NCBI GenBank assembly: GCA_029959295.1
Contig: JASCOH010000009.1
Coordinates: forward strand, 1 to 64,000
From: Flavobacteriaceae bacterium PS02334
GTDB lineage: Bacteria > Bacteroidota > Bacteroidia > Flavobacteriales > Flavobacteriaceae
Direction: 5' to 3'
Length of the DNA: 64,000 nucleotides
In this document: one piece after another, positions 31,484-50,007 of the stretch
How the letters are laid out: every line of letters begins with the position of its first letter
Numbering within the stretch: position 1 is the stretch's first letter
Position numbers and translations under genes: made by a program
The notes under the pieces: generated by a model
What the model was told of the DNA's origin: nothing
The model's input: only the letters and a program-made list of their open reading frames with translations
Database searches by the model: none

Positions 31484-32290
31484 TTAAAATATAAACTTGG
31501 AGCGCATTTTTTCGACTTGCCCTTCTGGCGTCAGTTCAAGGCGTTCCTTGTATAAACTGACAGCATCATTTCCTGCTATATACCTTAGCTGATCCTTGTT
31601 ATCAGTGGCTGCATCATAAATAATCTGAGCCACGTCTTCTGCTCTTGTATAATTGGCAAGCTGCTCCTCGCTATAGCCTTCGCTAACCTTAGCCACCAGT
31701 TGAGCATACGCTTCATGCATTCCTCCCTGCAAAGACCTTCCTGCAAAGTCGGTCTGCATACCACCTGGAGCCACTACTTTCACTCTAATTCCGAATTGTG
31801 CCAATTCATAGGCCAGACCTTCTGAAAAACCATCAACAGCAAATTTCGCCGCATTATAAATGGAGCAGGTTGGATATCCAAGCAGGCCAAAAGTACTGGT
31901 AATATTGATGAAAGTACCGCTTTTTCTTTCCCTAAAATAGGGAACAAACGCCTTTGTCACATGAATAACGCCGAACAGATTGGTCTGCACCTGCATTTGG
32001 ATCTGCTCATCTGTCAGGACTTCCAGAGGGCCGATCAGACCGTAGCCGGCATTGTTCAGGACTACATCAACAGCATGGGACTTCAAAACTTCTGAGATTG
32101 TATGCTTAATCTTTTCCTGATCGGTAACATCCAGCTGCACCATGGTTACATTTGGAAGTTCCTTCAATTCGCTTTCTTTTTCAGGATGGCGCATCGTTGC
32201 GATTACCTTCCAGCCATTTGCCTGAAATAATTTGGCTGTTGCCTTGCCCAGCCCCGAAGAGGCTCCGGTAATGAAAATTGTCTTTTGCAT
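31484..32290 (-). CDS. SDR-family oxidoreductase, AraC module 1
   Basis: 268 aa, a classical SDR: TGASSGLGKATAKLF cofactor motif (residues 7-21), NNAGYG, catalytic Ser in INITSTFG, YxxxK as YNAAK, long C-terminal part with ADDVAQIIYDAATDNKDQLRYIAGNDA, typical of the oxidoreductase subgroup near 270 aa. The gene heads the module operator-SDR-AraC. Its promoter has no T at the first -7 position and two 12-bp repeats upstream, so it probably depends on the AraC activator. Confidence 0.9.
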   Translation of the reverse strand: MQKTIFITGASSGLGKATAKLFQANGWKVIATMRHPEKESELKELPNVTMVQLDVTDQEKIKHTISEVLKSHAVDVVLNNAGYGLIGPLEVLTDEQIQMQVQTNLFGVIHVTKAFVPYFRERKSGTFINITSTFGLLGYPTCSIYNAAKFAVDGFSEGLAYELAQFGIRVKVVAPGGMQTDFAGRSLQGGMHEAYAQLVAKVSEGYSEEQLANYTRAEDVAQIIYDAATDNKDQLRYIAGNDAVSLYKERLELTPEGQVEKMRSKFIF

Positions 32291-32315
32291 AATTTGTTTG
32301 TTTAAGTTAACTATG

Positions 32316-32379
32316 CAAAGGTGGGCATTACGAAAAGCCTAAAATTAATCTAAAATGAGATATTGTAAGCCGAAATGAC
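32316..32379 (-). promoter_or_regulatory. Tandem AraC operator and -7 box of SDR module 1
   Basis: In gene direction: distal GTCATTTCGGCT (32368-32379), proximal CTCATTTTAGAT (32348-32359), 24-bp gap, -7 box CACCTTTG (32316-32323). The repeat period is 20 bp; the other group-A sites have 21. Confidence 0.65.
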
Positions 32380-32479
32380 ATTGGCATACTTTATTTGGAA
32401 GTCGCAAGCTATCCCAAAGAGTACATCCTTTTTGCACCCCATTGTAAAATAGCCCACTTTAGTCCCGTTTATTGTTGGT

Positions 32480-32965
32480 TTATACAGCCTTGTTAATGCT
32501 TCGTTGTTTTCTGAATTGCAGAACAGAACCTATAATAAATAGCATTAACAATAAAAATAGTGTTTTAGCAATTAACGGGTCGGCTGGGCCAGCGGCCAAA
32601 GGATGTCCAATAGGGACACGGGTAAAAGTTTCATTAACGGTGGGAACCCACGATAGGAAAAAGCTAAATGAAAGTAGAAAATTTTCAAAATACCTACTTC
32701 TTTTGTTCTCTTGTTTTTTAGCATGAAGGTAATACGCAACCGTTACTAACACCACTATAAAAATTGCAAAAATATGCCCAGGATTAAAGCCGTGCTTCAA
32801 AAGGCCCAATGATGTGAGTGATGTAAAGATGGTAAAGTAAAAATAGGTTTTGCCGGTTTTGCCTGCCAAATTTATTTTGCCATATCTTATGTATGAAATG
32901 ATGGCTGCAACAATAGCAATAACGCCGATTACAGTATGAAAAATCCCTAAAATTGATAGTCCCAT
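32480..32965 (-). CDS. Small integral membrane protein
   Basis: 161 aa with four predicted transmembrane helices: about 5-25 (ILGIFHTVIGVIAIVAAIISY), 41-60 (YFYFTIFTSLTSLGLL), 66-84 (GHIFAIFIVVLVTVAYYL) and 130-150 (LFLLLMLFIIGSVLQF). A fifth, weaker segment lies around 95-110. I do not recognise the family with confidence. It lies downstream of a promoter with the second type of AraC repeat (32992-33058), so it is probably a target of AraC-2 encoded just upstream on the same strand. Confidence 0.65.
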   Translation of the reverse strand: MGLSILGIFHTVIGVIAIVAAIISYIRYGKINLAGKTGKTYFYFTIFTSLTSLGLLKHGFNPGHIFAIFIVVLVTVAYYLHAKKQENKRSRYFENFLLSFSFFLSWVPTVNETFTRVPIGHPLAAGPADPLIAKTLFLLLMLFIIGSVLQFRKQRSINKAV

Positions 32966-32991
32966 AATTTTTGATTTAAATTTTTATGGTA

Positions 32992-33058
32992 CAAAATTGC
33001 AATAAATGGAAGGGATATATTTTGTGGATTAGTTCAATTATTTGGCAATTTGGTTCAG
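32992..33058 (-). promoter_or_regulatory. Group-B AraC operator 1
   Basis: On the plus strand GTTCA occurs at 33032-33036 and again 21 bp later at 33053-33057, within AGTTCAATTATT and TTTGGTTCAG. In gene direction a -7-like CAATTTTG lies at 32992-32999, 26 bp from the half-site. The site overlaps sequence between the membrane gene and AraC-2. Confidence 0.55.
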
Positions 33059-33086
33059 CCGATAATTGGAAGGCGAGACACTATAT

Positions 33087-33890
33087 TTATCGTGAAAGCT
33101 TTTTGGTAAAATTTGCCAGATCTTTAAATCCGCAATCAAAAGCAATATCTGAAATACGTTCATTGGAAGCCAAAAGCAATTCTGCACCTCTTTCCAGCCT
33201 TTTGGTTTTAATATAATTGGCGGGTGAATTATCATACAACTTTTTAAATTCCCTTTTAAACGAAGAGACGCTCAGATTGGTTCTGTCTGCCAGTTCTTCT
33301 ATATTAATATGTGCAAACAGATTGGCTTCTATAATCTGCTTGAACGTATAGTTTAGGGGTGAAAAAAGCTGGGATAATATCACCTGTATCGTTTCAAAAT
33401 CTTGTGTCTGTGATAATAAGAGTATGATTTCCTTTAACTTTAAAACCAAAATTTCATCATTTACCAACGCAGGATTTTCAAAATAAAAAAGAAGGCCTTC
33501 AATGTATTTGTGAATTAAAAAGTCATTATTAATGGCTTTCCTTGATTGATTGGTTACTTGGTTAACAGATCTAAATATGATTGGAATTTCTTTGTCGTAG
33601 ACTCTTTTCAATATATCTGGATGAAAGGTAACAATTACAATTTCGCCATCTCTATTTGAATTGGTATCTTGTATTTGCCTACCAGAATTTAGACAGTTGA
33701 GCAACAAAGCATGATGGGTTGGGATTTTCAAGCGGTCGTATTTTTCCTGAAATTCCATCTCCCCTTTCAACATATATAAGAAACAGGCCTGTTCTGCCAT
33801 AGGGAAAGCATATTCTAAAGGTGGTTTTAAATCCACTTTTTGAATGAAAGTTTTACCGAACAAATCTATTTTTTTATAGTCATTAACCAT
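33087..33890 (-). CDS. AraC-family regulator, group B
   Basis: 267 aa. The N-terminal half is a small beta-barrel domain unlike the group-A paralogs (FLYMLKGEMEFQEKYDRLKIPTHHALLLNCLNSG); the C-terminus has the AraC domain (HINIEELADRTNLSVSSFKREFKKLYDNSPANYIKTKRLERGAELLLASNERISDIAFDCGFKDLANFTKKLSR). Two promoters nearby carry its likely recognition repeat (GTTCA half-sites 21 bp apart): those of the membrane protein at 32480 and of the decayed osmC gene at 33965-34426. It would activate both. Confidence 0.88.
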   Translation of the reverse strand: MVNDYKKIDLFGKTFIQKVDLKPPLEYAFPMAEQACFLYMLKGEMEFQEKYDRLKIPTHHALLLNCLNSGRQIQDTNSNRDGEIVIVTFHPDILKRVYDKEIPIIFRSVNQVTNQSRKAINNDFLIHKYIEGLLFYFENPALVNDEILVLKLKEIILLLSQTQDFETIQVILSQLFSPLNYTFKQIIEANLFAHINIEELADRTNLSVSSFKREFKKLYDNSPANYIKTKRLERGAELLLASNERISDIAFDCGFKDLANFTKKLSR

Positions 33891-33964
33891 CCAGATGCAC
33901 TGTTACATTGTGTTATTTGAATCAATGCCAAATAAAAAACACGCTCATTCAATAACAGTGCAAT

Positions 33965-34426
33965 TTAAGCAAAATAATTAACAAGAATGTGATGACTCTT
34001 TACCACAAAATCCATTTTAGATAAAAGAAGGAATTCTGAACTGACAGGTATATTCAGTACTTTAGAGATTAGGAAATTCTGCTCCGCCTCTCTAGTGATA
34101 GATTCAAAATCTTCTGCACTAATATTCGATATCTCTCCTGTGATCGAAAGGTGTACGGAAGTGATACCAAAGCCTCCCAGCGATACAGCGGCTTCGATAG
34201 TAAGAAGTTGGAATGAAGCCTTTTCCGTCACGGCATAAATAACTGCGATCGTAAAACAGCCAGCATGTGCCTGCCAGCAATTCTTGCGGATTGGTACCTT
34301 ATTCTTCCCCTGTACAACGGGTTTTGAAACTGTAATTGGTTTTGTTTAAAATTTCACTTCGTGTATTCAGATCGCCTTTGCCTTCTTTTGCGGCTCCTCC
34401 CTATTCGCTTCTACTATATGATTCAT
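33965..34426 (-). pseudogene. osmC-like: Decayed OsmC-family peroxiredoxin-like gene
   Basis: The reading frame from ATG 34426 is MNHIVEANREEPQKKAKA, then a shift to DLNTRSEILNKTNYSFKTRCTGEE, a TAA, GTNPQELLAG, another shift to HAGCFTIAVIYAVTEKASF, and an intact tail to 33965. GTNPxELL and the HAGCF cysteine are OsmC hallmarks. At least two frameshifts and one stop are needed, so it is a dead gene of about 154 codons. OsmC proteins reduce organic hydroperoxides. A group-B AraC operator still precedes it (34463-34528). Confidence 0.75.
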
Positions 34427-34462
34427 TTTTAACTTTTTATGTGATTGTCCATATTGACGGTA

Positions 34463-34528
34463 CAAAGCTGCGAGACACCTATAGAACTATTTTGCGAATC
34501 GGTTCAATTATTAGGGAATCAGGTTCAA
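34463..34528 (-). promoter_or_regulatory. Group-B AraC operator 2 (in front of the osmC remnant)
   Basis: On the plus strand GGTTCAA occurs at 34501-34507 and 34522-34528, a 21-bp period, each preceded by GAATC. In gene direction a -7-like CAGCTTTG is at 34463-34470, 25 bp from the half-site. The central stretch matches the site at 33032 almost base for base. Confidence 0.6.
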
Positions 34529-34575
34529 GCACCAACTAGTTCATATTAGAAGAAATAAATCTGATTTGATTTAGT

Positions 34576-36723: not shown

Positions 36724-37533
36724 TTATTGCTGCCCCATTAATTCCCGCGGCGTCATTCCATATTGTTTTTTGAAAGCAAATGAAAAATGGGAAAGGTTTT
36801 CGAATCCGACTTCATAATAAAAATCAACAGGCTTTTTCTTTTTCTCCGTCAATTCATAATATGCCAGTTCCAAGCGCTTTTTGGTGAGCCACCGCTGCGG
36901 TGTCATATGGAATGCTTTCTGAAAATCACGCTTGAAGGTGGTCAGGCTGCGGCCGGTCAGGTATCCAAATTTTTCCAATGGCATGTTGAAGGTGAAGTTT
37001 TTTTCCATAAAAGCCTTCAGGTCAATTTTTCCCGGCTCTTCAAAATTGTTCAGAACCGCCTCGATTTTCGGGTCGATGGCTCGCAAAATAGCAATTGCCT
37101 CATTGATTTTTAACGAGGCAATATTTTCAGGGAAATCATTTTGTATTTCGAAATAAGGAATCAGCGAATTCAGGCAGCTGTCCAGCAGGGGATGCTGCTG
37201 GAAATGGATAATCTTTTCGGTTCCAATTTCCGATTTGGCAGATTTATCGTCAAAAAAATCTTTTAATCTCTTTGTCGAAAGGTGCATCGCAACCGCCTTG
37301 TGCGGCAATCCATCTTTGGGATAATTGATAATGGTTGCCAGTTGGTTCCTGGGAATCAAAAAAGTGCTACCTGCGCCGAAAACAAAGCGCTCATCAGCCT
37401 GAATGATTTTGGTTTCCCCTGAAAGCAGCCAGACCAGCAGATGATCCTGAAATGCCGCTTCCGTTTTGAACAGCTTTCCTTCATAACAGGAAAGCTTAAG
37501 TTCCGTGTTGATGTAATTTACCTGATAATCCAT
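36724..37533 (-). CDS. AraC-family regulator, group C
   Basis: 269 aa from the ATG at 37533 (an upstream TTG at 37557 would overlap the SDR stop). N-terminal domain: YEGKLFKTEAAFQDHLLVWLLSGETKIIQADERFVFGAG, cupin-like; C-terminal AraC domain: MPLEKFGYLTGRSLTTFKRDFQKAFHMTPQRWLTKKRLELAYYELTEKKKKPVDFYYEVGFENLSHFSFAFKKQYGMTPREL. Not closely related to groups A and B. It is encoded 20 bp downstream of the SDR gene at 37554, in the same effector-then-regulator order as the other modules. Confidence 0.88.
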   Translation of the reverse strand: MDYQVNYINTELKLSCYEGKLFKTEAAFQDHLLVWLLSGETKIIQADERFVFGAGSTFLIPRNQLATIINYPKDGLPHKAVAMHLSTKRLKDFFDDKSAKSEIGTEKIIHFQQHPLLDSCLNSLIPYFEIQNDFPENIASLKINEAIAILRAIDPKIEAVLNNFEEPGKIDLKAFMEKNFTFNMPLEKFGYLTGRSLTTFKRDFQKAFHMTPQRWLTKKRLELAYYELTEKKKKPVDFYYEVGFENLSHFSFAFKKQYGMTPRELMGQQ

Positions 37534-37553
37534 GTCCTGCAAATGTACGACTA

Positions 37554-38549
37554 TCAACTCAGTTCGAATAAAATGCCTGTCATTTCTTCACTCATTTTCC
37601 ATAAGCGCTTTGCATTTTTTTCATCCAGCGAATACGCTTTGATGCCGCCTATGACCGATACATCTGAATTAAGATCTGCTACCTCCACGTTTTCACAATA
37701 AACACCTCCTAAATCATCAAGCAACGGACTTGTGGCACACCAAACCGTGGTTGCTGCCCCTTGGGGAATGGTTTTCAACGAAGCGGCAATTTCTGGCAGG
37801 ATGTTTCCTTCTGCATCGCTATAACCTAATTTTTGAAACAAATCTGCTGGTGCTTCTCTTGACAATTCCGTTTCTCCGACGGCTCCAGGACACAAAGCAT
37901 AGCTTCTCACATTGTGCTTTTTTGCACGATTGTCAAGCTCAAGCGAAAAAAGATTGACAGCAGTTTTAGATTGGCCGTAGCCGAGCAATGTTTCATATTC
38001 GCGATGGATAAAATTGGGATCTTCAAAATCGAAATCAGAAAACTGATGCCCGCCGGAAGAAACATTTACAACTCTTGCGCCGTCAGCTTTTTTCAATGCA
38101 GGCCACAATCTTGCCGTCAGCTGAAAATGCGCTAAATAATTGATTGCCAATTGCGATTCGAAACCACGATAATCTCTGCGTAACGGAACCCACATGATGC
38201 CAGCATTGTTGATGAGCAAATGAAGCGGACGTCCTGAAGCTAGAAACTTTTCGGCAAAAGCATCAATAGAACCAGGATTGGCTAAATCCAGATTTTCCAA
38301 TTCTACATGGGCAATTCCGGCAAGATTTCTTTTTGCTTTTTCGATGTCGCGGGCCGGAACGATTACGGCAGCTCCTGCTTTTGACAAAGTTTTTACGGTC
38401 TCCAGGCCGATGCCTGTGTTGCCGCCCGTAACGATTGCGATTTTTCCTGAAAGGTCAATTCCCTGGCTGACTTCTTCGGCTGTTGATTTTGCATTAAATC
38501 CAGAATTGACAGGCTTCTGCAAAGCACCTTGATAATTGTACTGTTCCAT
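37554..38549 (-). CDS. SDR-family oxidoreductase (331 aa), AraC group C module
   Basis: 331 aa, an extended-length SDR: VTGGNTGIGLETVKTLSKAGAAV cofactor motif (about 41-63), NNAGIM, catalytic Ser in VVNVSSGGHQF, YxxxK as YGQSK (after ETLL). It resembles the retinol-dehydrogenase-like group, with long N- and C-terminal extensions, and also the SDR at 38973. It leads the module with the group-C AraC. The -7 box TAATTTTG (38574-38581) is an exact consensus match, so this promoter may have basal activity. Confidence 0.88.
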   Translation of the reverse strand: MEQYNYQGALQKPVNSGFNAKSTAEEVSQGIDLSGKIAIVTGGNTGIGLETVKTLSKAGAAVIVPARDIEKAKRNLAGIAHVELENLDLANPGSIDAFAEKFLASGRPLHLLINNAGIMWVPLRRDYRGFESQLAINYLAHFQLTARLWPALKKADGARVVNVSSGGHQFSDFDFEDPNFIHREYETLLGYGQSKTAVNLFSLELDNRAKKHNVRSYALCPGAVGETELSREAPADLFQKLGYSDAEGNILPEIAASLKTIPQGAATTVWCATSPLLDDLGGVYCENVEVADLNSDVSVIGGIKAYSLDEKNAKRLWKMSEEMTGILFELS

Positions 38550-38573
38550 CTTTTAATTATTTAATTGTTTGAA

Positions 38574-38630
38574 CAAAATTAGGAGTTCACAGCATGAAGA
38601 ACTTTGTTGAAACGTCCTAATTTACTTTGT
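38574..38630 (-). promoter_or_regulatory. Promoter of the group C SDR with direct repeat
   Basis: Minus-strand -7 box TAATTTTG (38574-38581), 24 bp from the ATG. On the plus strand, ACTTTGT repeats at 38601-38607 and 38624-38630 (period 23). AATTAGGA/TCCTAATT arms also frame the region. The repeat as a group-C operator is a guess. Confidence 0.35.
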
Positions 38631-38688
38631 TTAAAAATTCATAAAAGTGGAAGCTATCTTTTTAATAAGTCAGCCTTAGTGCTGTCTT

Positions 38689-38830
38689 TTATTTCGTTTC
38701 CGTTTCTTCCTCATTATTAGCAAAATTTTGTTGCTCGAATCTAAGTCTTTTGCTTCGGGTAATATCCGCCAAATGCTTCGATCGAACCTTCTTCGTGCTT
38801 TTCATTGGCCGGATGGGAAAAGATATGATG
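38689..38830 (-). pseudogene. 3' remnant of a second relaxase gene
   Basis: Reading minus-strand frames with shifts gives HHIFSHPANEKHEEGSIEAFGG, then PEAKDLD, then EQQNFANNEEETETK and a TAA. The intact relaxase at 43101 ends HHLFDFLNANQKQEGVCIEALG, LLPDAQGED, EEQDFANKMKKKKKH. The order and spacing agree, so this is the degraded C-terminal 45 codons of a divergent relaxase gene. The stretch to the next gene at 38973 has the SDR promoter and operator; no more relaxase sequence could be seen upstream. Confidence 0.65.
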
Positions 38831-38887
38831 CCGCAGAATAAAACCATTAATGGCACTGATTTTTAAATGCAATAGATTAAGTAATTG

Positions 38888-38951
38888 TTTTTTTTGACTA
38901 CACCAACAGTCGTTTTGGATAAATCCAGCATTTAATGTTGTCCCATCTTTG
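38888..38951 (+). promoter_or_regulatory. Tandem AraC operator and -7 box of SDR module 2
   Basis: Distal TTTTTTTTGACT (38888-38899), proximal GTCGTTTTGGAT (38909-38920), 23-bp gap, -7 box CATCTTTG (38944-38951), start codon 38973. Period 21 bp. Confidence 0.65.
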
Positions 38952-38972
38952 TATCAATAAAATAAATTTAAA

Positions 38973-39899
38973 ATGGAAAACGATATTAAAAATTGGACCG
39001 CTTCAAATATTCCTCAAAGAAATGACGGTTTAGCTGTAATAACAGGTAGTACAGAAGGTATTGGATTTGAAGATGCTTTGGCATTATCTTCTGCCAGTTG
39101 GAACGTGATCGTAATGGGACGAAACGCTCAAAATGGAGCTGATGCAATTGCTAAAATCCAACAAATTAATCCCAAGGCAAAAGTGAGTTTTGAAAAAATA
39201 GACCTTGCCGACTTGTCTTCGATCAAATCGTTTGCTTCAAGAATGCTTGCAAAAGGCAGAGCTATTGACTTGCTTATAAACAATGCCGGCGTAATGACAC
39301 CGCCCCACAGGCTTGAAACCGCCGACGGCCTTGAGCTGCAGTTCGGTACAAACCATATCGGCCACTTTGCGTTGACAGCGCAGCTGCTTCCATTGTTGCA
39401 AAAAGCGACCAATGCCCGAGTTGTCACGGTTTCCAGCATAGCAAGCCGAAGCGGGGCAATCCATTTTGATGACCTGCAGTCAAAAGCCTCCTATGTTCCG
39501 GGAAAAGCCTACAGCCAGTCTAAACTTGCGAACCTGATGTTTGCCCTGGAACTGCAGCGCCAGAGCGAAAAGCACGGCTGGGGCATCGCGAGCATTGCGT
39601 CCCATCCGGGCATTTCCCGAACCAATCTATTGATAACCGGTGCCGGCAAATGGAGTGCGACAGGAATTATGCGAAGATTTCTTCCGTTTTTATTTCAGCC
39701 ACAATCTCAAGGCGCATTACCCACTTTATTTGCATCCACGTCACCAGAAGCCAAAGGCGGATTGTATTACGGACCTAACAAAATGAGTGAAACACGTGGT
39801 TTTCCAGCTATCGCAAAAGTACCCGAACAGGCAAATGATTTAGCGGTTGTTCAAAAACTGTGGGAAGTAACGCAAAAATTAGCAAAGGTTCAGTTCTAG
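38973..39899 (+). CDS. SDR-family oxidoreductase, AraC module 2
   Basis: 308 aa, SDR with cofactor motif ITGSTEGIGFEDALALS (about 24-40), NNAGVMTPPHRLETADGLELQFGTNHIGHFALT, catalytic Ser in VTVSSIAS, YxxxK as YSQSK. It is of the retinol-dehydrogenase-like type and related to the 331-aa SDR (37554-38549). The likely operon is SDR, DoxX-like membrane gene, AraC; gaps are 62 and 13 bp. The promoter lacks T at the first -7 position and has a tandem operator, so AraC-dependent activation is likely. Codon use changes to GC-richer around the middle of the gene. Confidence 0.9.
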   Translation: MENDIKNWTASNIPQRNDGLAVITGSTEGIGFEDALALSSASWNVIVMGRNAQNGADAIAKIQQINPKAKVSFEKIDLADLSSIKSFASRMLAKGRAIDLLINNAGVMTPPHRLETADGLELQFGTNHIGHFALTAQLLPLLQKATNARVVTVSSIASRSGAIHFDDLQSKASYVPGKAYSQSKLANLMFALELQRQSEKHGWGIASIASHPGISRTNLLITGAGKWSATGIMRRFLPFLFQPQSQGALPTLFASTSPEAKGGLYYGPNKMSETRGFPAIAKVPEQANDLAVVQKLWEVTQKLAKVQF

Positions 39900-39961
39900 C
39901 AGTTCGATGTAATTTAAAAGAATTCAATAAATTAGTAACGTAAGTTTTTAAAAACAAAACG

Positions 39962-40318
39962 ATGGTAAAAAGTATAATTTCTATGGTATTGTTATCAGTG
40001 TCGGCTTTTCTGGCATTCAAACACGGCTGGGACACATTTAATTTCAAAAAACATCCCGAAGCGATGAAAATGATGGGCAAATTGGGCATTAACGAAACAA
40101 TGATACCCGTTTTCGGAGGGGGTACATTATTAGTTGGTATATTGCTGCTCTTTCCCAAAACATTTTTCTTGGGCAATGTCCTCAATGCTATGTCAATTGT
40201 AATCATCATGGCATTGGCAATGAGGGCTGGAAATTTTAAAATGGTATTGCTGGAAATTCCGTTTTTAATGATGCCCTTGGTGTTGATCTGGTTGAAATAT
40301 CCGTTTTTAAAAAATTAA
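39962..40318 (+). CDS. DoxX-like small membrane protein
   Basis: 118 aa with four predicted transmembrane helices: 3-20 (SIISMVLLSVSAFLAF), about 46-64 (MIPVFGGGTLLVGILLLF), 70-86 (GNVLNAMSIVIIMALAM) and 92-110 (FKMVLLEIPFLMMPLVLIWL). The layout is that of DoxX-like family proteins. They occur with SDRs and regulators in stress-related operons; the function is unknown. It sits between the SDR and AraC genes of module 2. Confidence 0.7.
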   Translation: MVKSIISMVLLSVSAFLAFKHGWDTFNFKKHPEAMKMMGKLGINETMIPVFGGGTLLVGILLLFPKTFFLGNVLNAMSIVIIMALAMRAGNFKMVLLEIPFLMMPLVLIWLKYPFLKN

Positions 40319-40331
40319 TCAAAACTGCCTT

Positions 40332-41234
40332 ATGGAAAAGCCAATCCGAATAAAAACCATTTCAGAGTTACACAAAGTAATGGGTTTGCCTAAACCGCAT
40401 CATCCATTGATTGAACTCATTGATTTATCCAAACAAAAAAAGGATACAGGAATTTTTGCTGTACTATTTGATTTGTACGTGATTACTTTAAAAAGAGGAT
40501 GCAATAAATTGTTTTACGGACAACAACAATACGATTTTGATGAGGGCGTGATGGCATTCTTATCGCCCGGACAAATTTTACGTGGAGAAACTACTGACAT
40601 TCCGGAAAATATAGACGGCTGGATGTTGTTTATCCATCCCGATTTTTTATGGAATACTCCTCTGGCTAAAAAAATAAAACAGTACGATTTTTTTGGCTAT
40701 ACTATTAATGAAGCCTTGTTTTTATCGGATAAGGAAGAAACAATGATAAATGGTATTGTAGAAAACATCAAAAACGAATACCAAACAAACATCGATCGGT
40801 TTAGCCAAGACATCATCATTTCACATTTGGAAACTTTATTGAATTATTCGGAGCGGTTTTACCAACGACAATTCATTACCCGTAAGAAAACAAATCATCA
40901 AATCCTCGACCGGTTGGAAGTATTGCTATCCGATTATTTCAACAGTGATGATTTGGTTTCAAAAGGACTGCCAACTGTTCAATACATTTCGGACAACTTA
41001 AATGTTTCGCCAACCTATCTGCGTAGTTTACTCAAAACATTGACAGGCCTGAATACCCAACAGCACATTCACGAAAAACTGATTGAAAAAGCAAAGGAAA
41101 AATTGTCAACTACGGATTTAACGGTAAGTGAAATTGCTTATGAATTAGGTTTTGAGCATTTGCAATCATTCAGCAAATTGTTTAAAGAAAAAACCAGTCA
41201 AAGTCCACTAGAGTTTAGGGCTAGTTTCAATTAG
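40332..41234 (+). CDS. AraC-family regulator, group A copy 2
   Basis: 300 aa. Starts KTISELHKVMGLPKPHHPLIELI, then QQQYDFDEGVMAFLSPGQ (cupin part), and ends LTVSEIAYELGFEHLQSFSKLFKEKTSQSPLEFRASFN (AraC domain). Paralog of the proteins at 30499, 42141 and 48750. It ends the operon SDR-DoxX-AraC whose promoter has the group-A operator, so autoregulation through the whole operon is likely. The start codon is 13 bp after the DoxX-like gene. Confidence 0.9.
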   Translation: MEKPIRIKTISELHKVMGLPKPHHPLIELIDLSKQKKDTGIFAVLFDLYVITLKRGCNKLFYGQQQYDFDEGVMAFLSPGQILRGETTDIPENIDGWMLFIHPDFLWNTPLAKKIKQYDFFGYTINEALFLSDKEETMINGIVENIKNEYQTNIDRFSQDIIISHLETLLNYSERFYQRQFITRKKTNHQILDRLEVLLSDYFNSDDLVSKGLPTVQYISDNLNVSPTYLRSLLKTLTGLNTQQHIHEKLIEKAKEKLSTTDLTVSEIAYELGFEHLQSFSKLFKEKTSQSPLEFRASFN

Positions 41235-41271
41235 AAAACATCATCCAGACTTTGCTGAACTACAGACATTC

Positions 41272-41335
41272 CACAATTTTGTTATCAGAAACCGCAATTG
41301 GGTTACAAACCACATTTTAGATAGAATGACCTTTG
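41272..41335 (+). promoter_or_regulatory. Diverged tandem AraC operator of SDR module 3
   Basis: CACAATTTTGTT (41272-41283) and CGCAATTGGGTT (41293-41304) match each other at 9 of 12 bases with a 21-bp period; a 23-bp gap leads to -7 box GACCTTTG (41328-41335). They match the other group-A half-sites less well, so this regulator may have drifted in specificity. A further CACATTTTAGAT (41311-41322) also resembles the consensus. Confidence 0.5.
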
Positions 41336-41361
41336 TTTTTCAAACATTTAAAATAAAGGAA

Positions 41362-42120
41362 ATGAAAAACGCATTAATTACAGGAGCGAACAAAGGCATT
41401 GGTTTAGAGGCAGCAAAACAATTGTTACAAAAAGGATACTATGTTTATCTGGGTAGCAGAGATTTAAAAAATGGTAGAGAAGCCGTGGAAAAATTACAAA
41501 ATGAAGGGCTGAAAAATGTTGAATTATTAGAAATAGACGTTACCAATCAGCAGTCGGTAGACAATGCCCGCATAGAATTGGGCAAGAAAACACAGGTACT
41601 GGATGTGCTGATCAATAATGCTGGTATCAATGGAATAGAATTTAGCGATGGCAAACCGGTGATGCATACTGCAACAGTAACGGAAGTAGATGTTTACAAG
41701 AAAGTCTATGAGGTAAATGTGTACGGTGTGATAAGAGTTACACAAGCATTTTTGGATCTATTGCGAAACTCATCAGCACCCAGAATTGTCAATGTAAGCT
41801 CCAGCCAAGGCTCACTCACTTTACACAGCGATCCGAATTATATTCACTATAATTTTAAAGGTTCGGTATATCAATCTTCAAAATCAGCCTTAAATATGTA
41901 CACCATTGTGCTGGCGTATGAATTGAAGGATTTGCCTTTTAAGGTAAATGCTGTTAGCCCAGGTTCTACCAAGACAGATTTTAACCATAATTTGGGGCAA
42001 GGTTCCGTTGTAGATGCCGGCAACCGAATTGTAAAATATGCCATCATTGGCGAGGACGGGCCGACAGGTAAATTTTTCTCCGAAGATATAAATACCGATA
42101 CCGGCGAAATTCCGTGGTAG
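41362..42120 (+). CDS. SDR-family oxidoreductase, AraC module 3
   Basis: 252 aa from the ATG at 41362 (MKNALITGANKGIG; a start at 41326 would lie inside the promoter). SDR signatures: TGANKGIGLEAAKQL cofactor motif, NNAGINGIE, catalytic Ser in VNVSSSQGSLT, YxxxK as YQSSK. The C-terminus FSEDINTDTGEIPW is typical of the carbonyl-reductase-like SDRs. The AraC copy 3 gene follows 20 bp downstream. Likely induced by the ligand of that regulator. Confidence 0.9.
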   Translation: MKNALITGANKGIGLEAAKQLLQKGYYVYLGSRDLKNGREAVEKLQNEGLKNVELLEIDVTNQQSVDNARIELGKKTQVLDVLINNAGINGIEFSDGKPVMHTATVTEVDVYKKVYEVNVYGVIRVTQAFLDLLRNSSAPRIVNVSSSQGSLTLHSDPNYIHYNFKGSVYQSSKSALNMYTIVLAYELKDLPFKVNAVSPGSTKTDFNHNLGQGSVVDAGNRIVKYAIIGEDGPTGKFFSEDINTDTGEIPW

Positions 42121-42140
42121 AAAATCACTAAATTTAGGAG

Positions 42141-43061
42141 ATGAAAAAGGACAAAAATATTCCTTACAATTACAATTCACTTACAGAGTTGCATCGGGTG
42201 CTTGGGTTACCTAAACCCTTGCACCCGTTGATTAGTTTTTTTGACAATACCAGTAGAAAGATAGATTATAACAACATAGCCGACCTGCGAACTTCATCGT
42301 TTTATAAGATCTCTTATAAGTCAAATCTTACCGGGCAGTTGAAGTACGGGCAACATTATTATGATTTTGATGAAGGCGGATTGTTTTTTGTATCGCCTAA
42401 TCAGGTTACTGCAAACAGCGATAATAACGGCGACCATTCCGGCTATACGTTATTAATTCATCCCGATTTTTTATTGTCTTATCCTTTGGCAAATAAGATA
42501 AAGAAGTATGGCTTTTTCAGCTATTCTGCCGATGAAGCATTGCATCTTTCAGATAAAGAAAAAGATACTATTATTTCAATTTTCAAAAATATCGACGAAG
42601 AATTGCAGAGCAGAATTGACGATTTTAGTCAAGATGTGATGATCTCACAGATCGAAACTCTGCTCAATTACAGCAATCGATTTTACAAGAGACAATTCAT
42701 AACCCGAAAACAAGCAAACAACGACCTTTTACAAAAAATGGAGCAAATTTTGGAAGAACTATTTAAAGATGAAAATCTGGCCAGCCAGGGTATTCCGACA
42801 GTCCAGCATCTTTCCGAGAGCCTCCATCTTTCGCCAAGCTATTTGAGTGATATGTTGCGCTCCTTAACAGGGCAAAATGCACAACAACACATCCAAAATA
42901 AGATCATTGAAAAAGCAAAAGAAAAATTATCTACTTCTAATTTATCAATTTCAGAAATAGCTTATGAATTAGGGTTTGAATATTCGCAATCTTTCAGTCG
43001 CTTATTTAAGGCTAAAACCAATCTTTCGCCTTTGGAATTCAGGAAGTCTTTCAACAACTAG
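42141..43061 (+). CDS. AraC-family regulator, group A copy 3
   Basis: 306 aa with the group-A layout: LTELHRVLGLPKPLHPLISFF, HYYDFDEGGLFFVSPNQ, FSQDVMISQIETLLNYSNRFYKRQFITRKQANNDL, and the AraC domain LSISEIAYELGFEYSQSFSRLFKAKTNLSPLEFRKSFN. It is encoded 20 bp after SDR module 3 and its promoter is probably that of the SDR. The cognate operator is the diverged one, in line with a regulator that has its own specificity. Confidence 0.9.
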   Translation: MKKDKNIPYNYNSLTELHRVLGLPKPLHPLISFFDNTSRKIDYNNIADLRTSSFYKISYKSNLTGQLKYGQHYYDFDEGGLFFVSPNQVTANSDNNGDHSGYTLLIHPDFLLSYPLANKIKKYGFFSYSADEALHLSDKEKDTIISIFKNIDEELQSRIDDFSQDVMISQIETLLNYSNRFYKRQFITRKQANNDLLQKMEQILEELFKDENLASQGIPTVQHLSESLHLSPSYLSDMLRSLTGQNAQQHIQNKIIEKAKEKLSTSNLSISEIAYELGFEYSQSFSRLFKAKTNLSPLEFRKSFNN

Positions 43062-45527: not shown

Positions 45528-46295
45528 ATGGATTCAAGACACAAGACAGTATTCATCGCCTTCTCTTCCCAGAAGGGCGGTGTCGGCAAGAGCACCTTTA
45601 CAACGTTGGTTGCAAGTACGATGCACTATCGGCTAGGCTACAACGTAGCGGTATTTGATGCGGATTTTCCACAGCACAGCCTGATGAAAATGAAGACAAG
45701 GGACCTAGCAATGGTGATGGAAAACGAGGCCCTGAAAAAGCTGGCCTACAGGCAGTTTACCACCATCAACAAGAAAGCCTATCCGATCAGGCAGCACAAG
45801 GCGGACAGCGTGCTGGAAGCGGCCCATGAATTTATAAATGCCGCTCCTGTCCCCATTGATATGGTATTCTTTGACCTTCCCGGAACGGTGAACACGCCGG
45901 GCATCCTGAAAGCACTTTCAGGAATGCACCATATTTTCACGCCCATCACTGCAGACCGGGTCGTAGTGGAAAGTACGCTCATCTTCACACAGCTCCTGCA
46001 GGACGTGATCATGAAGAAGGGGGAAGCATCCATTTCAACCATCAACCTGTTCTGGAACCAGGTGGACGGCAGGGAAAGTACTCCCCTGTACCAGGTGTAC
46101 AATCGGCTCATCGAAGAATTGGGCTTAAGCCTGATGCAAAGTCAAATTAAAAGCAGCACCCGTTTCCGCAAGGAAAGCGAGGCAGACAGCAGGACCTTTT
46201 TCCGTTCCACCCTGATGCCACCTGATCAGCGCCTTATGAAAACCACCGGGCTGGACCTGTTCATGGACGAATTCTTAAAAATCATTCACTTATAG
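45528..46295 (+). CDS. parA: ParA-family ATPase
   Basis: 255 aa. Deviant Walker A SSQKGGVGKSTFTTLVAS at the N-terminus, and DMVFFDLPGT (Walker B). ParA-type ATPases open the plus-strand transfer gene set of these ICEs and are thought to help keep or position the element before transfer. DUF3408 and TraD genes follow with 4-bp gaps. Confidence 0.9.
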   Translation: MDSRHKTVFIAFSSQKGGVGKSTFTTLVASTMHYRLGYNVAVFDADFPQHSLMKMKTRDLAMVMENEALKKLAYRQFTTINKKAYPIRQHKADSVLEAAHEFINAAPVPIDMVFFDLPGTVNTPGILKALSGMHHIFTPITADRVVVESTLIFTQLLQDVIMKKGEASISTINLFWNQVDGRESTPLYQVYNRLIEELGLSLMQSQIKSSTRFRKESEADSRTFFRSTLMPPDQRLMKTTGLDLFMDEFLKIIHL

Positions 46296-46299
46296 CCCC

Positions 46300-46740
46300 A
46301 TGGAGAAAGACAATATGAAAAAAGCCACCCCCGACATAAACGAGGAGCTTATGATGAACCTTATGGTAGATGGCATCAAGAGGGAGGGCCTGCAGCTTCC
46401 ACCGCAACATCAGGCCGAAGCACCGGAAAAGGAAGGAATCAAGCCCGAGGAAGCACCCCAGGAACAACCTGCGGTCAAGGAAAAGCCCAAGTCCAAAAGG
46501 ACTGGCGAACCCGAATATGAAAGTATCTTTTTCAAAAAGCCTGACACCAATGCCCGTGACGGGAAAACAGTCTACATCCGGCCGGATTTTCATGAAAAGC
46601 TGTCACGCATCGTCCAAGTGATAGGCGAAGACAAGATCACCATCTACGCCTATCTGGACAATCTCCTGGACTACCACTTCCATGAATTTGGGGAGCAGAT
46701 TACCAGGAGCTTTAATGATAAGTACAAACCCATCCTATAA
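46300..46740 (+). CDS. DUF3408-domain ICE protein
   Basis: 146 aa. The N-terminal half is charged and disordered (proline/glutamate/lysine); the C-terminal half, YESIFFKKPDTNARDGKTVYIRPDFHEKLSRIVQVIGEDKITIYAYLDNLLDYHFHEF, is the DUF3408 domain, which looks like a ribbon-helix-helix DNA-binding fold. It usually follows parA in Bacteroidota ICEs, as here, and may be the DNA-binding partner of ParA. Confidence 0.85.
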   Translation: MEKDNMKKATPDINEELMMNLMVDGIKREGLQLPPQHQAEAPEKEGIKPEEAPQEQPAVKEKPKSKRTGEPEYESIFFKKPDTNARDGKTVYIRPDFHEKLSRIVQVIGEDKITIYAYLDNLLDYHFHEFGEQITRSFNDKYKPIL

Positions 46741-46744
46741 GACT

Positions 46745-47380
46745 ATGGAAACAATAATCGTAATCTGCCTGCTGATCATCATTGCCCTTCTTTTACAAGA
46801 CAAGATTGTCATTAAGAAAAGAGGAGAACAAAAGCCGATGCAGCAAAAAGTCAATCCGGAGCTGCCCGATATTATGGGTCAGCCAAAGCCGGCAAGAAGC
46901 CATCTGTTGCCAAATACTTCCAATGAAGGACAGATGGAAGGACAGGAGATAAACCTTGATAACTTAGACATCGAATACGACGAGAATGAAAGTGTCGGCA
47001 CTCAGATTCCGCAGGAAGGACCGGACGAGGTTTTCAGGTACCTGCCCGATCTGGAGGAAGAGGAGGAAGTATGGAACCGGTACGGAATATCCGGCGGCAA
47101 TGACAGTCTTGCCCAAGGGGTCACCTATGAAGAACTCAGCTCCGTAGGGGCATTGCTCCAAAAAGAAAACCTGGAACAGTCCCGAAAGGAAACAGCGGTT
47201 GCGATAGTTCAAAGATTGCACGGCACTGCATTATTCAGCCTGCTGGAAAATTCCATCGAGGGTGCTTCCCGAAAAATTGCCGCGCTTCTGGACAGCACCC
47301 TCCCACCTGAAACCGAAACCGGTTCTTCCACCTTGCGGAAAAGTGATCTGGGTGATTTTGACATCGGGGAATTCTTATAG
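46745..47380 (+). CDS. traD: TraD-like conjugal transfer protein
   Basis: 211 aa from the ATG at 46745 (METIIVICLLIIIALLLQDKIVI). One N-terminal transmembrane helix, then a long acidic cytoplasmic part with GVTYEELSSVGALLQKENLEQSRKETAVAIVQRLHGTALFSLLEN. It resembles the protein called TraD in Bacteroidota ICE annotations; its biochemical role is unknown. It is the last gene before the third cargo insertion (47.5-50.0 kb). Confidence 0.7.
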   Translation: METIIVICLLIIIALLLQDKIVIKKRGEQKPMQQKVNPELPDIMGQPKPARSHLLPNTSNEGQMEGQEINLDNLDIEYDENESVGTQIPQEGPDEVFRYLPDLEEEEEVWNRYGISGGNDSLAQGVTYEELSSVGALLQKENLEQSRKETAVAIVQRLHGTALFSLLENSIEGASRKIAALLDSTLPPETETGSSTLRKSDLGDFDIGEFL

Positions 47381-47492
47381 GCTTCGCCTATGTCTCTTAA
47401 AAACATTAATTGTTCATTGCGGTCTGAAAGGAGTACGGTTATTTTGGGTTCAAATCTTTTATTATTATATCAGTATTTTGTATTGAAACTTT

Positions 47493-47539
47493 AACAGATA
47501 TGGGGATGCTACTAAGTCGGTAGCATCCCCATATTTGTT
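47493..47539. terminator. Bidirectional intrinsic terminator
   Basis: A 20-bp stem: the arm from 47493 (AACAG, then ATATGGGGATGCTAC) pairs with 47520-47539, with a 7-nt loop TAAGTCG. It separates traD from the convergent hydrolase gene. Confidence 0.85.
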
Positions 47540-47573
47540 AAGTTATTTCAAGAGCAAGGTTCTATGATATTAC

Positions 47574-48533
47574 TTATGATTTAATACCAATATGAGCTTT
47601 CGCATTAGGATCTTTTTGAAAATCTTTTTGTAATTGTTCCCAACTGTTATCAGCTGAATCCATTGCAGAATGGATGTAGGCCAAAATAGATTCGCAGACG
47701 AAAGCAACACGTTCCGGGCTTTCATCAGATGTTTCAGCAACATCCCATCCGGACACACCACCGTAGATATGTTCTGCACCAAACACAGTAAGTAAACTTT
47801 TACTTCCAGGAGCGTCATGATATGCATCAGCACGCCAATTTTCAACGTCTGAAAAATTGAGGTTGATGTCTTTGTCGCCATATATTACAAGTGCAGGAAG
47901 AGACATAGTTTTAAAGTTAATGCCTTTCAAGATAGGATAATTTGTTAATGCAAAATCTCCGTTAAGACCTTCTGGACTTCCAGGCGCTCCAATCATTACT
48001 CTAGCTTTTAATCTGGGATCGGGTAAACTTATTGTTTCTCCGGTAATATTGTCAGTTACTTCAGCACCTGCCAGCATTCCTACTGTAAGCGCTCCAAGCG
48101 AGTGGCCGATAGCAGATACTTGTGATATGTCAGCACGGTTTTCCAAACCCGGAACTGTGCGTAAGATTTGGTCCAGATTGTCAAGAATGAAATGCATGTC
48201 TTTTACTCTTGATTTCAAAAATAAACGTCCTTCAGGACCTGTAGGATCAAGACCTAAGAGTTTGGAATCAGGATGGGTTGGCTGAATTACAATGAAGCCT
48301 CTCGAAGAGAAGAACTCAGTCAATGGTGCCAATCCTCGTAGCGAAGAAAGATAGGTTGAGGGACCGTGACCATGTGAAAAAATTACTATGGGAAGATTAT
48401 TTCCATTGACAGGAGCGGATATTTTTAGTTGCATGTCAACAGGTCTGTCAGATACAGGCATTACTAGAGGACTGTAAGTGATAACGGGATTTGTACTCAA
48501 TCCAATAACTGAAATTTGATTTTGATTTTTCAT
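47574..48533 (-). CDS. Alpha/beta-hydrolase (dienelactone-hydrolase/lipase-like)
   Basis: 319 aa. Nucleophile elbow SAIGHSLGALTVG; oxyanion-type GHGPSTYLSS near residue 55; a candidate acid is in IYGDKDINL and a candidate His in VFGAEHIYGG. No signal peptide is seen. It hydrolyses an ester or similar bond; the substrate is unknown. It has its own promoter with a tandem group-A operator (48562-48625) identical in layout to that of the small membrane gene at 49708, so both are probably activated by AraC copy 4 encoded between them. Confidence 0.85.
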   Translation of the reverse strand: MKNQNQISVIGLSTNPVITYSPLVMPVSDRPVDMQLKISAPVNGNNLPIVIFSHGHGPSTYLSSLRGLAPLTEFFSSRGFIVIQPTHPDSKLLGLDPTGPEGRLFLKSRVKDMHFILDNLDQILRTVPGLENRADISQVSAIGHSLGALTVGMLAGAEVTDNITGETISLPDPRLKARVMIGAPGSPEGLNGDFALTNYPILKGINFKTMSLPALVIYGDKDINLNFSDVENWRADAYHDAPGSKSLLTVFGAEHIYGGVSGWDVAETSDESPERVAFVCESILAYIHSAMDSADNSWEQLQKDFQKDPNAKAHIGIKS

Positions 48534-48561
48534 CGTTTAAATATTTTAGTTTAATAATACA

Positions 48562-48625
48562 CAAAGGTTGATAGATTCGCGCAGTCGTAAGTAGTCTAAT
48601 TGAGGATTTGCGTAGTCAAAATGAG
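48562..48625 (-). promoter_or_regulatory. Tandem AraC operator and -7 box of the hydrolase gene
   Basis: In gene direction: distal CTCATTTTGACT (48614-48625), proximal CTCAATTAGACT (48593-48604), 23-bp gap, -7 box AACCTTTG (48562-48569), ATG at 48533. Period 21 bp. Confidence 0.75.
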
Positions 48626-48749
48626 AATAGCTTTTTATAGTGTTTAAACTGGTTTTCAAAATACTATAAAGTAAAAGAGAAACAAATTTCCAAATTGGTA
48701 TTTTGTTTCTCTTTTATAAACGCTGTCAGTGTTTGACAATATGTAACAG

Positions 48750-49664
48750 CTAATTGAATGAATGCCTGAAATCTACGGGAGCTATTTTGGTTTTTGTTTT
48801 AAACAGTTTACTAAATGATTGAGGATGCTCGAAACCCAACTGATAGGCGATTTCTGAAATTGTCAAATCGGTTGTGGACAATAACTCCTTAGCCTTTTCA
48901 ATCATTTTGTTGTGTATGTGTTGCTGCGCATTTTGGCCGGTTAACGAACGTAGCATATCGCTGAGGTAACTTGGTGACAAGTTTACAAGTTCGGCAAGAT
49001 ACTGAACAGTTGGAATACCGTGAGCAGCAGTCTTGCCATTATTGAAATAGTCATCCAGTATCACTTCCAACTTTTCGAGCAAACCGTTGTTTACAGCTTT
49101 TCTTGTAATGAATTGGCGTTTGTAGAAACGATTGCAGTAATTTAATAATAATTCGAGCTGTGAAATAATTACATCCTGGCTGAAATCATCGATGCGGCTG
49201 TCTAATTCATCAAGAACAATATCAAATATAGATAGGATTGTGGTTTTCTCTTTATCTGATAAATGCAATGCTTCATTAGTAGAATATGAAAAATAGCCAT
49301 AATCCTTTATCTTTTTTGCCAAAGGGTAAGATAACAGGAAATCAGGATGAATTAGCAGTACATAACCGGATTTTTTAATTTCATCCGGGCTTTCAAACAA
49401 TTGGTTTGGGGCAGTAAAAATCAAGCCACCCTCACCAAAGTCATAATGATTCTGACCATATTTAACTTTGGATGCCATGCTGGTCTTGTATGCAATTTTA
49501 TAATAATTGAGAACCATCCTATCAGGTAGTGCATCAGGGACTACATTGACATCATCAAGATTTATCATGCTTATCATAGGATGTAATGGCTTTGGCAGTC
49601 CAAGTGCCCTATGGAAGTCATTGAGAGAATCAAATTTTCGGTGGGTTGGTTCTTCCTTTTTCAT
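48750..49664 (-). CDS. AraC-family regulator, group A copy 4
   Basis: 304 aa. Group-A layout: LNDFHRALGLPKPLHPMISMI, HYDFGEGGLIFTAPNQLF, FSQDVIISQLELLLNYCNRFYKRQFITRKAVNNGL, and AraC domain LTISEIAYQLGFEHPQSFSKLFKTKTKIAPVDFRHSF. Its two likely target promoters flank it on the same strand: the small membrane gene upstream (operator 49944-50007) and the hydrolase downstream (48562-48625). Those two operators share the distal half-site exactly, which supports one protein binding both. Confidence 0.9.
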   Translation of the reverse strand: MKKEEPTHRKFDSLNDFHRALGLPKPLHPMISMINLDDVNVVPDALPDRMVLNYYKIAYKTSMASKVKYGQNHYDFGEGGLIFTAPNQLFESPDEIKKSGYVLLIHPDFLLSYPLAKKIKDYGYFSYSTNEALHLSDKEKTTILSIFDIVLDELDSRIDDFSQDVIISQLELLLNYCNRFYKRQFITRKAVNNGLLEKLEVILDDYFNNGKTAAHGIPTVQYLAELVNLSPSYLSDMLRSLTGQNAQQHIHNKMIEKAKELLSTTDLTISEIAYQLGFEHPQSFSKLFKTKTKIAPVDFRHSFN

Positions 49665-49707
49665 CGCTAAATATAAATAAAATTAATTAATAGTCTGTTC
49701 CTTCAAG

Positions 49708-49923
49708 CTATTCCTTATCCAACCATTTTTTAAATAGTTTGGTATAGATTGGCATTACCACATAAGTCATCAATGGCACCAAAACTGCTGATAAAATTAA
49801 TGTACGAATTAGCAGTGGAATTTGCATCAACAGACCATCAAAAAAATAAGACACAATGTTAATTACAGGATAAATCGCCAGCCATGATAAGAATGCTGTT
49901 TTGTGCGTTAACGAGTTTTTCAT
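49708..49923 (-). CDS. Small two-helix membrane protein
   Basis: 71 aa with two predicted transmembrane helices (about 9-29 and 33-53: AFLSWLAIYPVINIVSYFF; LLIRTLILSAVLVPLMTYVV), then a lysine-rich tail. It resembles the DUF2798-like small membrane proteins, with low confidence. It is the first gene of the unit operator-membrane protein-AraC copy 4 and lies 43 bp upstream of that regulator gene. Confidence 0.6.
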   Translation of the reverse strand: MKNSLTHKTAFLSWLAIYPVINIVSYFFDGLLMQIPLLIRTLILSAVLVPLMTYVVMPIYTKLFKKWLDKE

Positions 49924-49943
49924 TCTTTATAAATTTTATGATA

Positions 49944-50007
49944 CAAATTTCACACAATGAGATTTTTAGTATGAAGTCTAAATGAGAAATTTGGTAGTCA
50001 AAATGAG
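49944..50007 (-). promoter_or_regulatory. Tandem AraC operator and -7 box of the small membrane gene
   Basis: In gene direction: distal CTCATTTTGACT (49996-50007), proximal CTCATTTAGACT (49975-49986), 23-bp gap, -7 box GAAATTTG (49944-49951), ATG at 49923. Period 21 bp. It is the best-matching pair in the window. Confidence 0.75.

Follow-up and report, generated by a model that had tools for sequence, protein, structure and literature searches.

We analysed the first 64,000 nucleotides of contig JASCOH010000009.1 of Flavobacteriaceae bacterium PS02334 (GenBank assembly GCA_029959295.1, forward strand; the whole stretch is called the window hereafter), where five promoters between positions 31,484 and 50,007 carry two direct repeats at a nearly fixed distance before an xAnnTTTG promoter box. 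Four related AraC-type regulators, here called group A, are encoded in the operons concerned. On the minus strand, the short-chain dehydrogenase/reductase (SDR) gene 31484 (31484..32290, adh_short) is the first gene of an operon with group-A AraC 30499 (30499..31410) as its second gene. On the plus strand, SDR 38973 (38973..39899) opens an SDR-DoxX-like-AraC operon, in which the DoxX_2 match is under its cut-off and the third gene is group-A AraC 40332 (40332..41234); SDR 41362 (41362..42120, plus) is likewise the first gene of its operon, with group-A AraC 42141 at 42141..43061 (plus). Further along, again on the minus strand, the small gene 49708 (49708..49923) encodes a 71-residue protein, hydrophobic by eye and with no NCBIfam match; it is the first gene of an operon with group-A AraC 48750 (48750..49664) as second gene, and directly downstream of the latter lies the alpha/beta-hydrolase-like gene 47574 (47574..48533), which has weak Pfam matches and an operator of its own. 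The four group-A proteins are 300-306 residues long, and AraC 48750 shares 57, 53 and 63% identity with the other three. All four have PF12833 and PF00165 above the curated cut-off, as do AraC 33087 and AraC 36724, two further regulators of the window. In group A these AraC-type domains stand alone above cut-off and the N-terminal ~200 residues have no Pfam match at E 0.001, the part for which 33087 and 36724 show an ExsA_N domain.

Paired half-sites and an xAnnTTTG box were located at all five promoters named in the original prediction, which had described direct repeats 20-21 bp apart, 23-24 bp before a box whose first base is not T; repeats and box bases alike were found as described. Upstream of SDR 31484 (operator/promoter 32316..32379, minus), the half-sites occupy 32368-32379 and 32348-32359, and box CACCTTTG lies at 32316-32323; upstream of SDR 38973 (38888..38951, plus), they occupy 38888-38899 and 38909-38920, with box CATCTTTG at 38944-38951; upstream of SDR 41362 (41272..41335, plus), 41272-41283 and 41293-41304, with box GACCTTTG at 41328-41335; upstream of hydrolase 47574 (48562..48625, minus), 48614-48625 and 48593-48604, with box AACCTTTG at 48562-48569; and upstream of the small membrane gene 49708 (49944..50007, minus), 49996-50007 and 49975-49986, with box GAAATTTG at 49944-49951. 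The first base of the box is, in the same order, C, C, G, A and G. Half-site spacing (lag) and distance from half-site to box (gap) are 21/23 bp at four of the five promoters and 20/24 at SDR 31484, where the sum of 44 is kept. Compared with two copies of the 12-mer CTCATTTTGACT, the operators match at 23/24 positions (small gene 49708), 22/24 (hydrolase 47574), 18/24 (SDR 31484), 17/24 (SDR 38973) and just 14/24 (SDR 41362), yet even the last is correctly placed.

The original prediction had proposed a comparison with random sequence of the same composition, and the pattern stands out in it. When the window is scored with a matrix from 60 foreign sites that excludes it, the five promoters are its five top scores (53.8, 40.6, 33.1, 31.2 and 18.7 bits); the next place in the window reaches 8.2 bits, and no score in 30 Markov-1 copies, one strand of each, exceeds 5.9. 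Without any motif, the window contains six places with self-identity of at least 10/16 at lag 21 and gap 23, where 40 Markov copies average 0.6 and never have more than 2; three of the six are group-A promoters (SDR 41362, the hydrolase and the small gene) and one is a group-B site (32999) described below. The single 12-mer is not enriched in the window (62 matches at no more than 3 mismatches vs 77 expected), so that a lone repeat is no evidence. Over the whole genome of PS02334, the model search at E ≤1 returned 12 matches, of which seven stand at group-A genes, the five window sites included, and the other five are partial and lie elsewhere (E 0.02-0.64); the operator of SDR 31484 is weak in this search (E 0.23).

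The 8.2-bit place is a degenerate group-A-like pair at 24567-24633 (minus) with box CATCTTTG. Within 200 bp downstream of it no frame longer than 40 codons begins, and it is possibly the scar of a sixth module.

Conservation of the layout and its tie to group-A AraC genes

A single scan of named genomes gave more than 559 loci with relatives of the window's group-A AraC proteins, and the best 80 of these, spanning Flavobacterium, Chryseobacterium, Leeuwenhoekiella, Pedobacter, Mucilaginibacter, Chitinophaga, Niastella, Dyadobacter, Spirosoma, Hymenobacter and others, were searched in several ways. A matrix made from the window's ten half-sites has 59 matches of at least 16 bits in the 980 kb of these foreign loci and none in one Markov copy. 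In a search that ignored the box and left lags 12-40 free, 70 pairs fall at lag 21, against 6-19 at each of the 28 other lags; a lag-21 pair of at least 14 bits is present in 62 of the 80 loci, and xAnnTTTG follows the pair by exactly 23 bp in 60 of the 62, L041 and L061, with their box off register, being excluded from the resulting alignment (A2). A motif-free scan of the 80 loci also peaks at lag 21, with 43 sites at 21/23 against a mean of 1.2 in other cells, gaps of 22-26 being high too since the 16-bp repeat slides; in 40 further loci counts of 11, 10 and 11 at gaps 22, 23 and 24 form the lag-21 peak. The group-A consensus reads CTCATTTTGGCTACAAAAtyC CTCAATTAGGCTACA N20 GACCTTTG. The box ends 12-45 bp before the chosen start codon of the first gene (88 genes), and among 84 first genes scanned at E ≤1e-6, 70 match adh_short, 2 aldo-keto reductase and 1 a FAD-binding domain. 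The layout is retained across 81 AraC clusters at 70% identity, with little conservation in the 20 bp that separate half-site and box. Judged by sequence comparison, the group-A operator layout is real and spread over several classes of the phylum.

Whether such matches lie beside group-A AraC genes in other genomes was a check suggested with the original prediction, and they mostly do. Among AraC matches of at least 380 bits, 125 of 136 have an operator (S ≥8) and 5 of 136 have one on the opposite strand, where divergent modules can be real; the matrix for this count was trained on part of the same loci, and a few of the matches are duplicates, whose removal leaves 124 pairs from the 125. A further 99 distinct AraC proteins from class and genus samples, counted after rows identical to earlier ones had been dropped, include 83 with an operator, all at 21/23, and 16 without. 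The scoring of the earlier set allowed lags 20-22 and gaps 22-24 and penalised combinations other than 21/23; under it, 124 of 127 sites stand at 21/23, two at 21/24 and one at 20/24, which places the two direct repeats 21 bp apart in 126 of 127 sites, and in 83 of 83 of the later set.

The tie also holds in the other direction. In 198 genomes of the phylum, an operator model (R1) whose search filters lose weak matches has 16 matches in 10 genomes, and all 10 are among the 47 genomes with an AraC relative at E 1e-60 (hypergeometric 2.6e-7). Thirteen of the 16 are found no more than ~2 kb upstream of such a relative, one (the hydrolase) directly downstream of it, one at a contig end (G190), and one before an SDR with no such AraC listed nearby (G012). 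The last (L219, G012:C1:814800-817200), a group-A operator by its pattern, is possibly a distant regulon member. In a sister AraC clade, at ~300 bits, the group-A search fails: S ≥8 is reached in 2 of 42 matches of 200-350 bits, one of which is the L044 fragment. Four loci of this clade (L191, L193, L198 and L202) show GTATACAA-type pairs at lag 21 with a box gap of 24, perhaps a fourth half-site type. At 22 non-group-A AraC loci of the PS02334 genome, two supply all 36 lag-21 cells of the motif-free grid, the other lags having 0-7.

Protein and operator also vary together. Over the 124 pairs, the highest corrected mutual information links K286 (profile column 284) with base 11 of the half-site, followed by H280 (column 278) with the same base. 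R286 goes with T in both halves (12 of 14) and K286 mostly with C or A; in the later set, T stands at base 11 in 8 of 10 half-sites with R286 and in 4 of 146 with K286. When 1365 column-residue tests on 207 pairs were controlled with a tree built from columns 1-205 alone, R/K286 ranked first for TT and H/Y280 first for AA, both at base 11. Absence of H280 against AA gives 23 independent pairs, 11.1 the same way and 0 opposite (13 pairs, 6.9 and 0 on supported branches), and R286 against TT gives 11 independent pairs, 7 the same way and 0 opposite. Bases 10 and 14 had suggestive tables and were dropped, as the scan gave no resolution there, nor at base 3.

H280 and K286 align with S84 and R90 of a solved SoxS chain, in the second recognition-helix region, and we take the equivalent positions of MarA to contact bases. 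In regulators of this kind the two recognition helices sit in adjacent grooves (PMC6882843). If base 11, in the promoter-proximal part of the half-site, is read by the second helix, the first unit would lie upstream and the second towards the promoter. The window itself holds both types: AraC 42141 has R286 and Y280, and its operator, the poorest fit to the 12-mer, has T at base 11 in both halves, as fits such a protein; the other three group-A regulators have K286 (30499 and 48750 being of the K286/H280 type), with C or A at base 11. Part of the DNA preference of a group-A AraC protein thus appears to be readable from its sequence.

Because of the conservation, the adjacency and the co-variation of helix and base, the group-A AraC proteins encoded in the same operons are likely the regulators of the five operators, and these operons, mostly SDR-first, would be self-regulated. 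The original prediction had the five promoters served by the four paralogs of the same modules, which is supported in a refined form: each operon probably answers to its own regulator, and the window's regulators fall into two or more specificity classes.

The -7 box in three AraC subfamilies

Sigma-A promoters of Bacteroidota have -33 and -7 elements (PMC12632263), and in F. psychrophilum the box TAnnTTTG lies at -12 to -5 (PMC9723704). By this ruler, taken from another organism, the conserved group-A half-site, which ends ~20 bp before the start of the box, would end near -33. At 207 group-A sites the first base of the box is G in 134, C in 60, T in 10 and A in 3, and T is found in 7 of 81 representatives at 70% identity. 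T occupies this position at 7 of 120 operator promoters (6%, window sites and repeats excluded) vs 116 of 204 xAnnTTTG boxes found elsewhere in these loci, 10-70 bp before a gene (57%), and 169 of 526 antisense boxes (32%), so that T is avoided, beyond a mere relaxation. Other positions are biased too: position 4 is C in 138 of 207 sites, position 3 is A in 94 and C in 81, and the modal group-A box, GACCTTTG, accounts for 33 of 127.

The original prediction had also named nearby promoters that lack the repeat and keep T. T is indeed present at tetR (TATCTTTG, 29114, minus), SDR 29651 and SDR 37554, but the last has a half-site pair of another kind, 23 bp apart, and belongs to one of two further subfamilies with their own operators.

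Group B came to light in the motif-free check, which exposed two window pairs with half-site GAACC...CAAAT flanking AraC 33087 (33087..33890, minus), the regulator to which we assign both. One (32992..33056, minus; lag 21; non-T box CAATTTTG at 32992-32999), unmentioned in the original prediction, is the operator/promoter of membrane gene 32480. The other (34463..34526, minus) has box CAGCTTTG at 34463-34470, one base nearer, and stands before an apparent decayed OsmC-like gene, recognised by eye at 33965-34470 (minus), between this operator and AraC 33087. With a matrix of the four window half-sites, the lag fixed at 21 and the box position free, 33 of 34 loci with a relative of AraC 33087 have the pair, placed just behind the AraC gene (the listed matches G886, G1005 and G1000 were left out), with scores of 19.3-36.6 against a maximum of 15.1 in 102 Markov copies. 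The box lies at the same distance in 33 of 33, and its first base is C in 29, G in 4 and T in none. The motif-free grid of these loci has no clean peak (lag 20/21 counts of 69/47 on the plus strand and 42/44 on the other), so that support for group B comes from the half-site matrix at fixed lag and free box position. The remaining two motif-free pairs of the window, with boxes at 32966 (plus) and 3082 (minus) and self-identity of 10/16, match none of the three half-site types by eye and may be chance, 0.6 being expected per window.

Group C is represented by AraC 36724 (36724..37557, minus), encoded after SDR 37554, the operator/promoter of which (38574..38641, minus) has half-sites at 38626-38641 and 38603-38618 (lag 23) and box TAATTTTG at 38574-38581. 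At the loci of AraC 36724 relatives, TGACATTTTAAACAAA-like pairs precede the SDR position, and lags 22 and 23 stand out without any motif. With a matrix derived from the same 30 loci (own locus included, seven further listed matches left out), 28 of the 30 have their best pair at lag 22 or 23, with scores of 18.7-44.3 against a Markov maximum of 17.8 at lag 22. The box starts 21 bp after the half-site in 27 of 28, and its first base is T in 27 of 27, SDR 37554 included. A shifted register for this group was considered and dropped, as the distance from the end of its conserved half-site to the box is unchanged. Near a 55% relative of the group-C AraC in the genome of PS02334 (L241, C11 near 988877), several 21-bp tandem units (TAGACTAATTTAATTA-like) with xAnnTTTG boxes lie on the minus strand at ~2930-3150, possibly a multi-site operator.

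In all three subfamilies, then, the conserved proximal half-site ends ~20 bp before the box, and the half-site letters differ. A non-T first base as the mark of every AraC-run promoter is ruled out by group C: it is specific to subfamilies and does not signal AraC control in general. Boxes without T accompany 21-bp spacing, in groups A and B, and boxes with T a spacing of 22-23 bp, in group C, a link that, with three cases, is a lead and not a law. Of the deliberately weak boxes of the original prediction, the avoidance of T stands (10 of 207 sites with T in group A, none of 33 in group B); weakness as its cause is not supported, and neither is a non-T box as a general rule.

A candidate mechanism and its rivals

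In Escherichia coli, AraC at araI1-I2 and the class-II activators MarA, SoxS and Rob set tandem subunits on one face of the DNA about two turns apart, the proximal one at -35, and each subunit has two helix-turn-helix units. Group A resembles them in its tandem same-face sites about two turns apart and in a C-terminal domain with two helix-turn-helix units, and differs in serving a -33/-7 rather than a -35/-10 promoter, in a -7 box conserved off consensus and in a regulator gene inside the regulated operon. We hypothesize, and hold it to be very probable, that the five window sites are operators of class-II-like AraC activators acting on weak boxes. Two subunits would be arranged in tandem along the same face of the DNA at a distance of 21 bp. 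A half-site spans ~16 bp (CTCATTTTGGCTACAA), and its subunit would contact it through both helix-turn-helix units, the first at CTCA, in the upstream part, and the second at GGCTACA. As the proximal half-site ends at the would-be -33 element, the regulator could stand in for the -33 contacts and keep sigma-A bound to a -7 box ([G/C]AnnTTTG) without the consensus first T, a box that would fire poorly alone. With its gene downstream in its own operon, the regulator would form a self-regulated switch, and since the first gene is usually an SDR, the signal is probably an SDR substrate (a carbonyl, a quinone or a similar compound). The predicted binding of the operators by group-A AraC proteins is well supported by the observed layout, its tie to the group-A genes and the co-variation of the second helix with base 11; activation, the sigma contact, weak basal activity behind the observed non-T bias, the contacts of the first unit and the ligand are what we infer.

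Several results weigh against this mechanism or narrow it. Ten of 207 group-A sites have T, and T is kept in 27 of 27 group-C boxes, meaning that AraC-linked promoters do not need a weak box. Control boxes show no -33 TTG peak either, which leaves no contrast on the loss of -33. In all, 27 of 235 AraC matches are without a scored operator (11 of 136 and 16 of 99); at least two of these, L041 and L153, have the repeats and lack an exact TTTG box in register. One group-A gene of the PS02334 genome (C11:742729) has no model match at E ≤1, though it is above the score threshold of the 136-match count. For the helices, R286 on supported branches gives 4 pairs, 1.7 the same way and 0 opposite, which is not significant, and for CC at base 11, columns 91 and 193, outside the helix, outrank H280. 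First-helix residues 232, 236 and 239, strongly linked with base 3 by plain mutual information, lost that link under tree control, D236 hardly ever differing and giving one independent pair.

The same operators could serve AraC proteins that repress, or that simply release their sites on ligand: the operator ends close to the promoter, and a shared operon of first gene and regulator suits either sign. We nevertheless find repression improbable, given that the proximal half-site abuts -33 without covering the -7 box, and that a box conserved off consensus would be odd in a promoter that is strong unless repressed. Equally small, in our judgement, is the chance that [G/C]AnnTTTG is read by an alternative sigma factor and marks a different promoter type rather than a weak sigma-A box. 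The biases at position 4 (C in 138 of 207) and position 3 (A 94, C 81), the modal GACCTTTG (33 of 127) and the six sigma-type motifs reported in F. psychrophilum (PMC9723704) would agree with such a factor; the A and TTTG of the sigma-A box are retained, however, at the usual distance to the start codon, and groups A, B and C share one distance from half-site to box while differing in base 1.

A less improbable alternative, though still an unlikely one, is that the non-T base is a by-product of how an AraC protein of period 21 engages polymerase and has nothing to do with weakening basal transcription. The pairing of non-T with 21-bp spacing in A and B and of T with 22-23 bp in C is what such an architecture would give; against it, there are just three subfamilies, and T occurs at ten group-A sites whose spacing is unchanged or nearly so. 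That the repeats are functionless copies inherited with duplicated modules, or sites of an unrelated regulator, is hardly credible. The window modules are indeed paralogous, their AraC proteins being 53-63% identical to AraC 48750, but the layout is kept over 81 clusters at 70% identity while the 20-bp stretch between half-site and box is little conserved, the half-site letters track residues of the adjacent AraC, and all 10 operator-bearing sample genomes encode the AraC.

More broadly, Bacteroidota might have a readable promoter grammar for AraC-type regulators, with a shared register, a spacing-linked box base that sets dependence on the regulator, residues 280 and 286 helping to predict operators, and many orthogonal self-regulated switches; this broader proposal is tentative and may well fail.

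Known systems and genomic setting

Tandem AraC sites 21 bp apart are already known, Bacteroides included. In the reconstructed motifs of Bacteroides hybrid two-component systems (HTCS) the direct repeats are on average 21 bp apart, and both 12-bp sites separated by 9 bp and 16-bp sites separated by 5 bp occur among them (PMC3878776), so that HTCS share with group A both the ~21-bp direct repeats and an AraC-type DNA-binding domain. In contrast to the HTCS, where a sensor kinase is fused to a response regulator, group A consists of ~300-residue one-component proteins, mostly beside SDR genes; with AraC-type domains alone above cut-off, they have no fused sensor, histidine kinase or response regulator and fall outside the HTCS. 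The relevant sections of that account give no register to a -7 box, no base-1 bias and no residue-base code. AraC-type rhamnose regulators (RhaR, of Bacteroides and others) also use direct repeats ~21 bp apart, and RhaR is an activator in B. thetaiotaomicron; regulator and function differ from those of group A, and promoter register is not discussed for RhaR in the sections concerned (PMC3870299). With the sigma-A box TAnnTTTG, as given in PMC9723704 and PMC12632263, the group-A box shares A and TTTG; it differs in a first base of G or C, not T, and in the operator lying where -33 would be. None of six terms looked for in PMC11253607 is present there. In the literature searched, most subscription journals lying outside it, we found no paper whose title or opening abstract lines deal with this AraC-SDR group, its operator or a non-T box at AraC-run promoters. 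Nor did that literature show a fixed register to the -7 box, a conserved off-consensus box in two subfamilies with a third as a natural contrast, or residue-base co-variation that assigns operators. The vague annotation of an AraC next to an SDR could thereby give way to testable regulator-operator pairs in many species, the role of an activator at a -33/-7 promoter becomes directly testable by one-base changes, and the operator-promoters offer inducible parts for Bacteroidota genetics.

Because a relaxase (PF03432), a ParA-like ATPase and a DUF3408 protein are neighbours of the modules, the latter look like cargo of an apparent conjugative or otherwise mobile element. A contig of Chryseobacterium formosense (L080, NZ_FPAP01000001.1) repeats the gene order of window positions 36724-43061, by gene lengths and strands, and has two matching group-A operators.

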